A program made the position numbers and the translations under genes. From positions 1 to 64,000 of IMG/VR virus record IMGVR_UViG_3300049793_000099: a stretch of DNA of 64,000 nt; one strand, given 5' to 3'. The notes under the pieces were generated by a model. That model did not search any database. It saw nothing but the letters and a program-made list of their open reading frames with translations, and was not told the DNA's origin. Every line of letters begins with the position of its first letter. Position 1 is the first letter of the stretch. This stretch comes from a virus. This document shows positions 14,706 to 62,600 of the stretch, in pieces.

Positions 14706-14720
14706 ACTAATTAAAAAAAT

Positions 14721-14790
14721 AGAACGGAAGTGTATTGGTAGCACAGGTTAAATACTTAACAAAGTGGAAGGTCGATTCTTTCACGTTCTC
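14721..14790 (+). tRNA. Degenerate tRNA gene or tRNA-like RNA
   Basis: Acceptor AGAACG pairs with CGTTCT, D arm GTGT-ATTGGTA-GCAC is intact, and T arm GGAAG-GTCGATT-CTTTC is intact. Length to the acceptor end is 69 nt. The anticodon arm is wrong: GTTAAATACTTAAC is nearly self-complementary and gives either a 4-base loop or a 3-bp stem, with no U33. It has its own strong terminator 43 bases downstream. It may be a decayed tRNA or a tRNA mimic. CCA is not encoded. Confidence 0.5.
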
Positions 14791-14832
14791 AAACTATGTT
14801 TCATAATATGTAGTTTTTAGTTAGTTAATTTG

Positions 14833-14863: not shown

Positions 14864-14919
14864 TAACAAACTATATTATGAATAATAAAATAATAAATAA
14901 TAACTAATTAATAAAAATT

Positions 14920-15018
14920 ATGGAATATATTAAAAAAGAAGATTTAAAAGATAGTGAAATTTATAAAACATCAAATGGTTATATATTTAAATATTTAGAT
15001 AAAAATGATAAAATATAA
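14920..15018 (+). CDS. Small acidic/basic peptide, 32 aa
   Basis: A 32-codon frame with the usual leader (AAAAATTATG). The product MEYIKKEDLKDSEIYKTSNG continues into a short strand. It resembles small phage proteins that consist of one KEDLKxG-like module. No function known. Confidence 0.4.
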   Translation: MEYIKKEDLKDSEIYKTSNGYIFKYLDKNDKI

Positions 15019-15106
15019 TAATAATTTAAAATCTAAAACCTCATATAAAGGATGGTTAGATCATTGTAACAGTATAAATTTAAAAAGAAAATATGAAAAC
15101 TATTAA
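15005..15106 (+). CDS. Small basic peptide, 33 aa
   Basis: A 33-codon frame overlapping both neighbours by 14 bases. The product is basic and polar with a conserved-looking core SYKGWLDHCNS. Support is weak and rests on gap filling. Confidence 0.3.
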   Translation: MIKYNNNLKSKTSYKGWLDHCNSINLKRKYENY

Positions 15107-15353
15107 AATTAAAAAAAAAGAATTTCAAAAATTATATGATATTGCATGTAATCAATGGCAACCAATATTTCAAGAAAAATTTAAAGAATTTTTATTTGAA
15201 GATTATATTGAATTTGATGAATCATTTTTATTAAAAATGCAAAAAGCTTGTACAGATCCACAATTAAAAGTATTTAATGTAATATTTAAACCTTATTTGG
15301 AAGAAGTTATAGATTTATTTAGTATAAATACTTATAAAAAAGTTTGTAAATAA
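15093..15353 (+). CDS. Hypothetical protein, 86 aa
   Basis: A helical protein (KKKEFQKLYDIACNQW, then FEDYIEFDESFLLKMQKAC). It lies 12 bases upstream of the variable-repeat gene, so it may be part of the same unit. It does not look like the accessory protein Avd of diversity-generating retroelements, although size and helical content are in the right range. Confidence 0.6.
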   Translation: MKTIKIKKKEFQKLYDIACNQWQPIFQEKFKEFLFEDYIEFDESFLLKMQKACTDPQLKVFNVIFKPYLEEVIDLFSINTYKKVCK

Positions 15354-15365
15354 TTAAAAGAAAAA

Positions 15366-15629
15366 ATGGAAATTTGTCCATTTAGAAAAATTAAACAAAT
15401 TGAGAAATTATTTAATGATAATTGGAAAGTAAACCTTACAGATCCAAATCAAGCAAAATATTATCCTTATTTTGAAATAAAAAGTTCTGGTTTGGTGTTC
15501 GGTGGTTCTAGCTACAGCTACTGCAGCTTTTTTGGGCGGGTTGCCTTTTACAAAGATAGTAAAACCTCTGATTTTGTTGGTAAAACATTCTTAAAAGAAT
15601 ACGAAGAATTTGGAAATTACAAAGGTTAA
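15366..15629 (+). CDS. Putative diversified protein carrying a variable repeat, 87 aa
   Basis: Residues 40-60 are encoded by a variable repeat (15483-15546) whose adenine-rich partner lies 94 bases downstream of the repeat end. In the partner the same codons read mostly Asn (AAC/AAT), and here they read Gly, Ser, Tyr, Cys, Phe and Arg, changing twelve residues. The N-terminal part (EKLFNDNWKVNLTDPNQ, then KYYPYFEI) and the tail (DFVGKTFLKEYEEF) look like a small scaffold holding a variable strand-loop, and the repeat codons stand out as G-rich in an AT-rich gene. Usual targets have longer binding domains with the repeat at the very C-terminus. Here 27 residues follow it. Ligand and function unknown. 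Confidence 0.75.
   Translation: MEICPFRKIKQIEKLFNDNWKVNLTDPNQAKYYPYFEIKSSGLVFGGSSYSYCSFFGRVAFYKDSKTSDFVGKTFLKEYEEFGNYKG
15483..15546 (+). repeat. Variable repeat (VR) of a DGR-type pair
   Basis: These 64 bases align without gaps to 15641-15704. They differ at 16 positions (15489, 15494, 15501, 15502, 15504, 15511, 15517, 15519, 15523, 15526, 15531, 15532, 15535, 15538, 15539, 15543). At every one the partner has A, and this copy has G (13 times) or T (3 times). No non-A position differs. This is the adenine-specific mutagenesis signature of diversity-generating retroelements. Confidence 0.85.
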
Positions 15630-15640
15630 TATTATAAACT

Positions 15641-15704
15641 AGTTCTAGTTTAGTGTTCAATAGTTCTAACTACAACAACTACAACTTTAATGAGCAAGTT
15701 ACCT
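15641..15704 (+). repeat. Template repeat (TR) of a DGR-type pair
   Basis: This non-coding copy holds all the adenines, including the AAC-rich run typical of template repeats (around 15668-15685). 16 of its 22 adenines are changed in the partner and none of its 42 other bases. It sits downstream of the target gene in the same orientation, in a gap without open frames (15630-15839). No reverse transcriptase is encoded anywhere in this window, so the enzyme must lie elsewhere or be absent. Confidence 0.82.
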
Positions 15705-15839
15705 CTACTTTAATAATATTAATATTAACATTAACTCTTGCTAAAAAATATAAAAATTGAAATAATTCTTAGTAATGAAAATGAAAAGTATTATTGAAAA
15801 GTAAACAATTAATAAAATAATAACAAATAAATAATAATT

Positions 15840-16118
15840 ATGAAAACAGATAAAACAAAAGTATTTTTTAGATACTCAGAAGATAGAACTATTACAGCAG
15901 TTGCTAAAAATGTTCAAACAAATGAAGAAATTGCAACTAGAGAAGTAAAACTTCGTCATGGTGATACACCAAATAAAGTTGTTGGTAGAAAATATGCTTT
16001 TAAAAAATTAATGGATTATAGTTTAGTTAACAATTTATTACCAAAACTTGAAATTGGTGCATTATGGAAATTATTTGGATCAATTTGTAAACAACCTAAT
16101 TATAAATTAGCTTATTAA
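15840..16118 (+). CDS. Hypothetical basic protein, 92 aa
   Basis: A Lys/Arg-rich protein with an N-terminal strand region (KVFFRYSEDRTITAVAKNV) and a helical C-terminus. The N-terminal pattern (xFFRYSxDxTITAV) recalls small phage proteins of unknown function. A 21-codon frame (16118-16183) follows its stop as TAATG and may be translated. Confidence 0.6.
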   Translation: MKTDKTKVFFRYSEDRTITAVAKNVQTNEEIATREVKLRHGDTPNKVVGRKYAFKKLMDYSLVNNLLPKLEIGALWKLFGSICKQPNYKLAY

Positions 16119-21910: not shown

Positions 21911-24090
21911 ATGAGTGAAAATAAAATAAGTCTTTTTGAAAGAGCTTATAAAAATATTGTAGAAAAGAGAAAAAGAGTATTATTAGGAAAAATAAATTGT
22001 ATTCCTTTAGGATTTCCTAGATTTGAAAATGAATTACCTGGTATTGAACAAGGTAAAAATTATTTGATAACTGCTAACAGTAAGGTAACTCTTTAAAATA
22101 ATTAAAAAAATAATATAAAATAAGCGTTAAATAGTTGGGATTTTAAATAAAAAAATAGTTTATCTTTGTGGTAAATTAAAAAATTATTTATATGCAAATT
22201 ATTAAACCAAAAGAAAATTCAGGAATTTATTGTATTATTAATACTTTCAATAACAAACGTTATGTCGGAAGTTCAATTAATTTATATATGAGATTACAAG
22301 TACATAGAAGTATGTTAAGAAAAAATTATCATCAAAATAGAAAACTTCAAAATTCTTGGAATAAATATTCTGAAGAAAGATTTGATTGTTATATATTAGA
22401 ATATTGTTCTGAAGAATTATTGATAACTCGAGAACAATATTATATTGATAATTTAAAACCTGAATATAATTTAGTTTTACAAGTAGAACGAAATATATTA
22501 AGTAAAGAATCTAGATTATTGCAATCAGAAACTCGTAAAAGAAGAATTAAATCAGGAGAAATAAAACTTTCTTGTGAAAAAATAATTTATCAATATGATT
22601 TAGAAGGTACTTTTTTAGAAAAATACGATAGTATTACAAAAGCATGTATTATAAATAATATTCATCAATCTACAATTTGTAGATTTTTAAATAATACTTA
22701 TAGAAAAGGAGGAAATTATTTATGGTCGTTAGAATATAAAGAAAAATTAGACCCTTATATTAGACTTAGACATGATACAGGTAAATTACACAAACCTGTT
22801 CAAATTTTAGAAGACGGAATCATTGTTTTAGAATTTGGATCTTTTAAAGAATGTGCTAAATATTTTAATACTTATTCAACATGTATTTCTTATGCGATTA
22901 AAATTAACGCTGTTTTTAGAAAAAAATATAAAATTATTTTAAAACCTGCCTAGGACAATGGTAACATTGTACCATGCACATCTGAATATCGGTGAAGCCT
23001 TATCGTAAAGACGATGGTAATACCGAGGCATAGGGAGTAAAGTTCCAGCCGTAGAGACTAGATGCAGATGCTCCTATAGAAATATAGGATGAAGATATAG
23101 TCCAGACCACAAAACATTAAATTGGTAATGAAAATTATAGTGGTATGAGGAAAAAGTCAAATTACAGATTGGATATTTCTTTATAATACAATACAACAAG
23201 TTATTGATAAAGGTTTAGATATTAGATTAAAAATCTTCTATTTTACTTTAGAAATGACCGCTGAACAGAAGATGTTATCCGCATTTTCAAATATTCTTTA
23301 TGTTAAAGAAGGTATTCGCATATCTCCTAAAGATTTAAGATCTACTAAAGCAGACAATGTATTATCTCAAGAAATATTAAATATTATAAGTAAATACGAA
23401 CCTTATTTTAAAAAAATAGAAGAAGTTGTTGAATTTATTGATGATATTCGCACAGGATATGGAATTTATATAACAATAAGAGATTATGCTTTAGCTAATG
23501 GTACAATCCATAAACGAAAAATTGAAACTAAACCAGGAGTGTTTATTGAAGTTGAAGACTATTATGAAGCAAATGATCCTGAAGAATATGTAATGATAAT
23601 TATCGATCACTGTTCTTTAATAAGTCCTGCTAAAAATTATGAAACAGGTTTACCTATGACTTTACATGAATCAATAGGAAAACTTAGTTCCGATCATCTT
23701 ATTAAACTTAGAAATAGATTTAAATATATTTGTGTAGTAGTTCAACAACAAATGGCAGGACAAGAAAGTGTTGAAAATAAAAAGTATAATAAACTTAAAC
23801 CTTCTTTAGATGGTCTAGCAGATAATAAAACTACACAAAGGGATTTTGACTATATACTTGGACTTTTTAGTCCTTTTAGGCATGAAATTCCTGAATATAT
23901 GGGTTATGATATTCATAAGTTTAAAGATCAAATTAGATTTCTTGAAATATTAGGAGGTCGTGAAGGCGGTGGCGGAACAATTTGTCCATTATATTTTGAT
24001 GGAGCAGTAAATTATTTCAAAGAATTACCTTTACCAAACGATCCAGAATTAAATAAAGTTTATGAGTTTATGAAAAATATTAAAAAATAG
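21911..24090 (+). CDS. dnaB: DnaB-type replicative helicase, split by a group I intron
   Basis: Exon 1 is 21911-22086 and exon 2 is 23148-24090. Joining them gives a 372-residue protein and restores the Walker A motif, ANSKVGKS at residues 55-62, with the split codon GT|A for Val59. Exon 2 then gives FYFTLEMT (helicase H2), MIIIDHCSLI (Walker B) and VVVQQQM (H3). The RecA-like C-terminal domain is present but no full N-terminal DnaB domain, a shortened form common in phages. The helicase would unwind DNA ahead of PolB with the primase at 27329. Without splicing the product stops three codons past residue 58. Confidence 0.9.
22161..22168 (+). promoter_or_regulatory. Bacteroidota-type -7 promoter inside the intron
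   Basis: TATCTTTG matches TAnnTTTG exactly and lies 23 bases before the endonuclease ATG. TTG at about 22137 lies near but slightly far for a -33 box. It would let the endonuclease be made independently of dnaB transcription. Confidence 0.5.
22192..22953 (+). CDS. Intron-encoded GIY-YIG homing endonuclease
   Basis: A 253-residue endonuclease with GIY at residues 11-13, YVGSS at 24-28 and the catalytic Arg at 34, followed by the helical part of the GIY-YIG domain ending in NLKPEYN. The middle and C-terminal parts contain NUMOD1-like repeats that include IYQYDLEGTFLEKYDSITKA and VQILEDGIIVLEFGSFKE. It would cut intronless dnaB alleles and drive intron spread. It lies wholly inside the intron, between the 5' end and the catalytic core, with its own promoter. 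Confidence 0.9.
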   Translation: MQIIKPKENSGIYCIINTFNNKRYVGSSINLYMRLQVHRSMLRKNYHQNRKLQNSWNKYSEERFDCYILEYCSEELLITREQYYIDNLKPEYNLVLQVERNILSKESRLLQSETRKRRIKSGEIKLSCEKIIYQYDLEGTFLEKYDSITKACIINNIHQSTICRFLNNTYRKGGNYLWSLEYKEKLDPYIRLRHDTGKLHKPVQILEDGIIVLEFGSFKECAKYFNTYSTCISYAIKINAVFRKKYKIILKPA

Positions 24091-59616: not shown

Positions 59617-62600
59617 TTATTTACATCTTTTTTCGTATTCTTGAGGATACATTTGTTTAAACATTTCAAAATCTCTTAATTCTTTTTCAGAAGTTAAATT
59701 ACCTTCTTGTTTCTTTTTAAACAAAACATCCATTCTTCTAAAGTCAGTTTGTCTTTGTTTAGGATTTCTTTTCTCATTAAAAACTCTATCTTGAGTTTCT
59801 TTTATCTCAAAATTTTCCACAGTTCCAGGTATTTCTGACAAAGATAAGAAATTTTCCTGAGAATTCCTAATATTATTTAATAAATTATTTATTTCTATAT
59901 CTAATCTATTAAAATTACGTTCTTTTTTAAAAAGTTCATTTAATCTATTTAATATATTTTCAGATGCTTTTTTAGATATACTATAAAAATTTTTTATTAA
60001 ATCCTGTTCTGATAATTTACCATCATTTATATCACTTCTTAAAATATAACGAGCTAATATCAAAACATTATTAGTAGTTAAATTATTTTTTAAATATTCA
60101 ACTTCTATTTTTGACGCTTTAAATTTTTCTTGAACATCCTTAATAATTTCTTGATTATTTCCAAATAAACTATCGAATCCAGTATTATCAATTTTAACCT
60201 CAACACCTGATTCCGAAACTTTAGGTTGATTAGTTACTGTAATACTTGTATTTAAATAAATATTAGTGTAACCTTGAAATGTTGGTTCATTAACTACTGC
60301 ATTAGTAGATAATATATTGTTATCAACTAAATATTTAAGATAATCTGCAGAATTAGATTTAAGATTAGTTTTAGTATTATCAATTTCAGATTTAGGATTA
60401 ATCTTAATCTGATGTCTTTTTTGATTAATTAAGAAATCTATAATTTCATTTTGATCTTGTTCAATTGTATCTATTGTAGATTCTTTATCACCATAATATA
60501 GAATTCCATTAACAATTTGCATTTGAGATTTAATATTTGCTGATTGATATATTAATAAATCAATAATTTCTTGAAGTTTAATATCATTTTTATTACCCCC
60601 AATAATATTTAATTCAGCTTCAAAATTAGTTGTAATAGTTTCTTTTAAATCATTATTAACTTCAGAAATAGTTGTATCTAGTGATTTCTCATTAGTTATA
60701 ATTTCTTTATAAATTTCATAAAGTAAAACTGCTTCACTTTCACTAATTTTTTTAATATTAAGTTTTAAAGGAAAAAGTTTACCATTAGTTTGAGGAATAG
60801 TTAAATATATCTCACCTGCTGCATTTGGCTTAATCTTATCGTTATTAAATTCAAATATTTTATCATTTAATATATTTTGTAATTTACCAAATGAATTTAT
60901 AACATAAATATTTTCTCTAATATAATTTAAATCTTTAATTCCATTTAATTGAAGAATATTATTATTAGCAAATCTATTGCTATCTACTTTTAACAATCCT
61001 TTATATTGATCTTGTATTGTAGTTTTAATATCATTAATAGATATACCTTTAATTAAATTATTAACAATTTCAATTCTTAATAATTCTGTAGCAATATTTA
61101 TATCATTTGTAATCCTTCTAGTTTCAATTGGAGCTTTAACCTCATTTGTAAATTGTACATTAATAGGTAAGAAATCTATTAATAATTTAGGATTAGAAAA
61201 ATCTTTATTGTTAAACGCATTTAAAGCTACTATTACTTTAGGATTTTTACCAGGATTTTGATTAATTTCAAATCCAACTTCTTTACCAGATTTATTAACA
61301 GGTTCTCTTTCATATTCTAAATACAAAGGAAATTGTTCTGATATAAAATTTAAAGGTAAACCTGTATTTCTATCTGTACTAATAACTTTAACACCTAATC
61401 CATAATCTACTTCGCTATTCTGAATACTTTTAAGCTCTTCTGAGGTGTTATTTTCATTCTCTTGAGGTATAAGTTCATCTGTAACAATTGATCCTTCTGT
61501 AGCTGTTAAACCATCATACGTTGTTACATTATTAAAATCACTATCTTCTTGAGTAGCATTAACTCTTTCTTCATTATTAATAACTTCTTCTTTAGCGATG
61601 ATTTCAACTTTTTTCTCATTAGCTTTTTGTTGAAGAACTTTATCTACATTAGTATTTGTTTTAGGTAAATTATCTAATTCATCAGTAGTTGTAGCATTAT
61701 TAATTACTTGTGAAATTTCTTCTGCTTTAGCTACTATTTCTGGAGAAGTTGCTTCTTGAAGTTTCTTTTTAGCTACAACTTCATTATTAATCTTATTATT
61801 TAACCATTCATTATCCCAAATAGTACTATTTGTAGCTTCTTCAAAATCTTTAAGTTGTTCTTCAACTTTAATAATTTGAGAATTAACTAGATTTAATCTA
61901 GGATTATTTGTTTTAGTTTTAATAGTTTTAAAAATATCTTCTGTTTTACCTTCAATATAATTAGGATTTATAATTTCAATAATTGATGAATTAGTTTCTA
62001 AATCAGCTCTTTGTTTCTGTAATTTTTGTAATTTATCCTTAGCATCAAATTCTTCAGCTCTGTCAGATATAAATGTAGAACCAACTCTATTCATAAAGTC
62101 AACAAGATGTTCTTCTGTAACTTCTGGATTATCAATTCTAATAATTGAAGCAGCCGTATCTTTATAAGAACTTAAATCCTTTTGAAGAGATGTTGCTTTT
62201 TTCATTATTTTATCAACTCTTTCAATATTTTCTTTATTGATTTTAACTTGTTCTTCTGAAATATCTTTTGAAGTTTCTGTTGGAAATGCTACTTTTAAAT
62301 ATTCATGTAATCCATCTAATGTAACTTGATCTTCACCTATAAACTTTTGAATAAGATTGAACTCTGCTTGACCTTTTAAGTATTCAATAGTATTAGTATC
62401 ACTTTCTTGAATAGCTTTATCATAAATTTGAGAATGTTGTTCAGTTAAATCTAAAGCATTTTTAACTTTAACAACAGCTTCAGGAATAAATACTTTTTTA
62501 CCATTAACTAATTTATCTCTAGTTGAAACTTCACCAGTTTCAGGATTAGTATATTCCTCTTGTTTGTAAAGATTTGTTTTAACTACATCTTGATAAGCAG

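Follow-up and report, generated by a model that had tools for sequence, protein, structure and literature searches.

The question raised by this locus is whether a pair of repeats bearing the adenine-only signature of a diversity-generating retroelement (DGR), with no reverse transcriptase (RT) recognizable beside it, belongs to a dead element, to one served from elsewhere, or to no retroelement at all. Surveys of DGRs start from the RT, which makes cassettes without one invisible to them. The window analyzed here (the whole stretch of 64,000 nt, part of a 96,910-bp IMG/VR record, with an A+T content of about 76% by base counts) contains these elements of the cassette:

15366..15629, + strand: DGR target gene, 87 aa, matching phrog_11581 (profile positions 31-113)
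15483..15546, + strand: variable repeat (VR), in frame within the 87-aa target gene, where it spans codons 40-61; 16 of 22 template adenines and 0 of 42 other positions altered
15641..15704, + strand: template repeat (TR), noncoding, 12 nt past the target stop codon
15705..15839, + strand: noncoding spacer 3' of the TR; the RT gene begins here in relatives, and a lineage gene (15840-16118) is found here instead

The two 64-base repeats align without gaps, and every one of their 16 mismatches has an A in the downstream copy (13 A->G, 3 A->T and 0 A->C changes in the VR, 6 of the 22 adenines being kept), the 42 non-A sites being identical throughout, exactly as the earlier note on this DNA, made from the letters alone, had described them. 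The probability of all 16 differences landing on the 22 A sites is P = 1.5e-10 (hypergeometric test). Read in the VR frame, the TR gives S-S-S-L-V-F-N-S-S-N-Y-N-N-Y-N-F-N-E-Q-V-T, and the VR, which lies inside the coding region of the target gene, alters 12 of its residues; the same number had been counted before, with the slight overstatement that most of them are Asn in the template (6 of 12 are, the others being S, S, Y, E, Q and T). The end of the pair falls at the same protein position as in relatives, where a putative IMH/IMH* initiation element at the 3' end of VR and TR would lie. No third copy is found in the window (the runner-up segment has 19 non-A mismatches) or in the whole record, so that the search for further template copies, proposed in the earlier note, leaves the pair standing alone. 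Judged from the sequence, the pair is a product of DGR-type mutagenic homing, and as none of its 42 non-A sites differ, drift since the last homing amounts to at most about 7% (95% bound), which means that a loss of the RT must be recent or that the system is still acting.

The target gene belongs to a family named in the library only as phrog_11581: it matches the family profile built here with an E of 3.6e-22 (1.4e-26 in a further search), and has the KYYPxF motif before the VR, the aromatic/Arg motif after it and the C-terminal helix. Relatives are encoded by 446 candidate stretches in one IMG/VR scan (the best 80 of 446 were retained), and a scan for bacterial homologues with the window protein gave a sole match, Barnesiella sp. 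An55, which is the same 48,696-bp sequence as L005. The tiny size of the target and the 27 residues after the repeat had been thought unusual; both are normal traits of this family. Its usual layout has, on one strand, two or three target genes, the TR about 40-70 nt past the last of them, and then the RT, and the placement of the TR in the window agrees with it. The RT was present in 20 of the 23 virus records of a first set, and three scans gave 168 unique loci with a clean TR/VR pair, of which 159 contain RT sequence, a few of these RTs being partial or cut by contig ends. Template adenines in the relatives were changed to G 189 times, to T 99 times and to C 66 times and kept 181 times, against 13, 3, 0 and 6 here, a difference in spectrum (no A->C in the window) that is not significant (P = 0.06). 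Four further phages have the RT and TR tens of kb away, with the family member as a remote target. In the pairs L026/L030, L010/L031, L007/L034 and L009/L035, the RT-side TR matches a phrog_11581 gene tens of kb away at all non-adenine sites, one template serving two VR genes, an early one and a second close to the RT.

Where, then, is the RT of the window's cassette? RVT_1 has no match anywhere in the 96,910-bp record, which extends to the whole genome what had been said of the window. An HMM of 22 relatives' RTs, run over the whole record with all filters off, gives a single significant stretch, placed 260 bp upstream of the target gene and aligned to positions 295-327 of the 330 in the profile (E 6.5e-7, the best reversed-sequence control reaching E 0.15; 60% identity over 30 aa by tblastn). 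The features around it are:

14920..15018, + strand: 5' remnant of a lineage gene (MEYIKKEDLKD...), the full gene being a 506-aa ORF in L056 (7488-9008)
14999..15106, + strand: C-terminal stub of a DGR RT, IKMIKYNNNLKSKTSYKGWLDHCNSINLKRKYENY then stop, ~34 codons, catalytic core absent
15093..15353, + strand: 86-aa ORF between the stub and the target, with a match to the N-terminal domain found ahead of the DGR domain in relatives' first target genes

Beyond this stub, RVT_1, the unfiltered RT profile and tblastn reveal nothing elsewhere in the record, so the search of the rest of the genome that the earlier note had called for returns, in place of an RT domain, the last ~34 residues of a DGR-type RT alone. 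That note's reading, a DGR without a local RT, stands as regards the mutagenesis, the family having adenine-only pairs beside RTs, and was incomplete in overlooking the stub that adjoins the cassette: an RT remnant of ~34 codons upstream of the target means that the element had its RT and then lost it. The lineage-gene remnant overlaps the stub out of frame, and this overlap marks the deletion/insertion joint at ~14960-15000. The 86-aa ORF, the sole frame in the record to match the profile of that N-terminal domain (E 1.5e-4), probably formed one target gene with the 87-aa ORF before a split in two; it has no close relatives in IMG/VR. A search for Avd (PF05635) gave no match in the record, and the control genomes gave none either. 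Loss of the RT at a contig break is ruled out, as the record ends overlap by 127 identical bp inside the groEL gene, and the record thus closes into a circle.

The genome itself is that of a crAss-like phage (Crassvirus major capsid protein, PF23898, E 3e-171), and its PolB, encoded next to the cassette, shares 62% identity with the PolB of Cellulophaga phage phi14:2 (Steigviridae). Two relatives, L048 and L056, are colinear with it on both flanks and have no cassette at that site; among the 15 crAss-like relatives searched whole, no true member of the phrog_11581 family and no RT over the cut-off was found, a single weak partial family match, without a VR, being seen in L039. The nearest crAss-like relatives being without the target and without an RT over the cut-off, the cassette is a lineage-specific acquisition. 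No near-identical phage was found in IMG/VR, and the DNA of the cassette region has no match among annotated phages. Similar A-rich leaders at 14884-14919 and 15803-15839, each directly 5' of a gene start, flank the cassette; they coincide in L048, where the cassette is absent, and may have guided its gain or loss. The intergenic stretch at 14720-14800 is tRNA-like by eye, and ARAGORN finds no tRNA in the window.

The locus is an RT-deleted DGR cassette and does not merit the label of a functional DGR, the RT having been searched for and found missing. The explanation we consider probable is that of a recently disabled DGR, with the RT deleted and the TR and VR frozen since the last homing. 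In the order of events that we infer, the crAss-like phage would have gained a target-TR-RT unit of the phrog_11581 type at an accessory-gene slot next to its DNA polymerase gene; the RT, error-prone at adenines, would have reverse-transcribed the TR RNA into a cDNA that took the place of the VR in the target gene, altering 12 residues of a predicted exposed strand and loop. A deletion would then have stripped the RT down to its last ~34 codons, now the upstream stub, with the target and TR on the downstream side; the target is still an intact ORF. Counting against this is the position of the stub upstream of the target, the reverse of the usual target-TR-RT order, which calls for a further rearrangement or for a tandem unit that once existed.

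RT loss recurs in phrog_11581 cassettes, about 5% of the family's sampled cassettes having no intact local RT. Complete TRs with no RT in the contig are seen in L143 (3393-3482), L266 (4458-4554), L323 (1246-1346) and L276 (305 and 918), which we regard as candidate non-autonomous DGRs; in L099 (3597-4016), the RT core has been removed by an in-frame internal deletion joining profile positions 8-59 to 237-326, and the internally deleted RT adjoins a pristine TR and two VRs. The RT is truncated in L269 and partial in L155, whereas L315 and L167 have lost the RT together with the 3' part or half of the TR, the surviving part matching perfectly at non-A sites; drift is present at other bases in L172. 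Most of these contigs are fragments, which leaves the window's record as the strongest case, namely, an RT-less cassette in an apparently complete phage genome, and cassettes of this kind make the “dead or served in trans” question directly testable.

The main rival to a frozen cassette is a non-autonomous DGR still diversified in trans by the RT of the host chromosome, a prophage or a co-infecting phage, and we see it as a minor possibility. It would account for the pristine state of the pair (0/42) and for the recurrence of RT-free cassettes with complete TRs (the four contigs named above), other phages of the family do serve targets tens of kb from their RT and TR, and such action has been inferred for RT-less loci of Thiohalocapsa PB-PSB1, where trans action and very recent loss were both considered (PMC10907252). 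The pairs of L315 and L167, however, are pristine despite their truncated TRs, which shows that a clean pair needs no current activity, implying a recent last homing instead, and that purity alone is no sign of a working system; IMG/VR yielded no donor element with the same TR, the stub points to loss rather than design, and the putative RT acting in trans would have to recognize a foreign TR RNA. That Bacteroidota phages carry target and TR cassettes without an RT, diversifying via an RT acting in trans a small intracellular early protein whose fold would be new among DGR targets, is rather unlikely in our view.

Repeats and hypervariable sites disturb assembly, and the deletion could be an artefact of the assembly or the population, the contig being a minority variant or a mis-join and most of the phages keeping an intact RT. 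Intact and disrupted RT variants do coexist in the DGR loci of one population (PMC10907252), and a metagenomic consensus may mask same-sample phages with an intact RT; the joint, however, lies away from the TR/VR repeat and contains lineage-gene as well as RT sequence, and the contig closes into a circle, all of which makes an artefact improbable. A simple duplication followed by drift of the second copy towards A (by AT drift or strand-specific deamination) and involving no retroelement, to which the AT-richness of the phage (about 76%) and the 13 G/A pairs among the 16 differences might seem to lend themselves, has a negligible probability, as such drift would need C/T differences, of which there are none, while three T/A ones are present, RT-linked pairs with adenine-only differences occur at the same place throughout the protein family and the stub adjoins the cassette, so that chance and AT drift, the latter dismissed already in the earlier note, are ruled out by the hypergeometric test together with the family evidence.

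What the VR diversifies is less familiar. An AlphaFold2 model of the target (pLDDT 89) is a small alpha-beta-beta-alpha-alpha fold, with the VR mapping to the second strand and the following loop, a loop modelled with low confidence in a relative. Neither the fold nor the sequence has a match in the PDB, and the matches in the viral library BFVD are uncharacterised phage proteins only, several of them crAss-like, so no C-type-lectin fold is recognized by the model, the PDB or BFVD. A DGR survey found annotated VR regions to be systematically C-type-lectin and C-terminal, that fold being near-universal (PMC8144416); the phrog_11581 targets, a widespread family of the early/recombination region rather than the tail, with a predicted fold that has no solved-structure match, challenge the idea that what DGRs vary is almost always a C-type-lectin domain used in adsorption, and they point to a hypervariable intracellular function. 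The gene neighbourhood is an early or recombination region both here, where the target adjoins PolB, and in relatives: the family member of Bacteroides phage Versailles has NinB on one side and replisome genes on the other, that of LoVEphage has methyltransferases nearby, and a DGR target of the Quimbyviridae has been located in a defence-related island (PMC8008677). The target is probably an intracellular early protein binding a variable partner from the host or a rival phage. The Versailles member (ON453897.1, L089, 5863-6444) is annotated as a “tail protein” despite its recombination/replication neighbours, a label that probably comes from the shared VR.

Set beside known DGRs (type: Bordetella phage BPP-1; survey PMC8144416), the cassette has the same adenine-only TR/VR pair, a VR in a protein gene, a TR just downstream and a remnant of a DGR-type RT; it differs in its deleted RT catalytic core, in its predicted alpha/beta early-region target without a C-type-lectin match and in having conserved C-terminal helices after the VR rather than a VR that ends the protein. 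The phrog_11581 cassettes of Bacteroidota phages and prophages (for example, L024, L094-L173 and the Barnesiella sp. An55 contig L065) share the target family, the VR position and a TR after the last target, but there two or three targets are present and the TR is immediately followed by an intact RT, unlike the one (split) target, the upstream stub and the missing RT seen here. The incomplete loci of Thiohalocapsa PB-PSB1 likewise have TR/VR without an intact RT, although on a bacterial chromosome with intact RTs elsewhere in the genome and with a loss via transposons and MITEs (PMC10907252), whereas the genome here is that of a phage and lacks an RT altogether. The second DGR target of the Quimbyviridae/LoVEphage (PMC8008677) is comparable in that the LoVEphage family member lies outside the structural module (L086, 5869-6453), whereas the RT reading frames there are found elsewhere in the genome and here the RT is deleted. 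crAssphage LMMB is also a crAss-like phage with a DGR, albeit one with an RT and, reportedly, a tail-related target (PMC7290462).

Two minor observations may be added. The crAss-like phage cr60_1 (NC_055891.1, L091) encodes a member of the family within the early region (60995-61558), and its RT reading frame contains four in-frame TAG codons, suggesting TAG recoding. In the window, the stretch 21911-24090 resembles an intron-split helicase gene with a homing endonuclease: a GIY-YIG-like ORF (22192-22953) is found there together with a short ORF and one more ORF.
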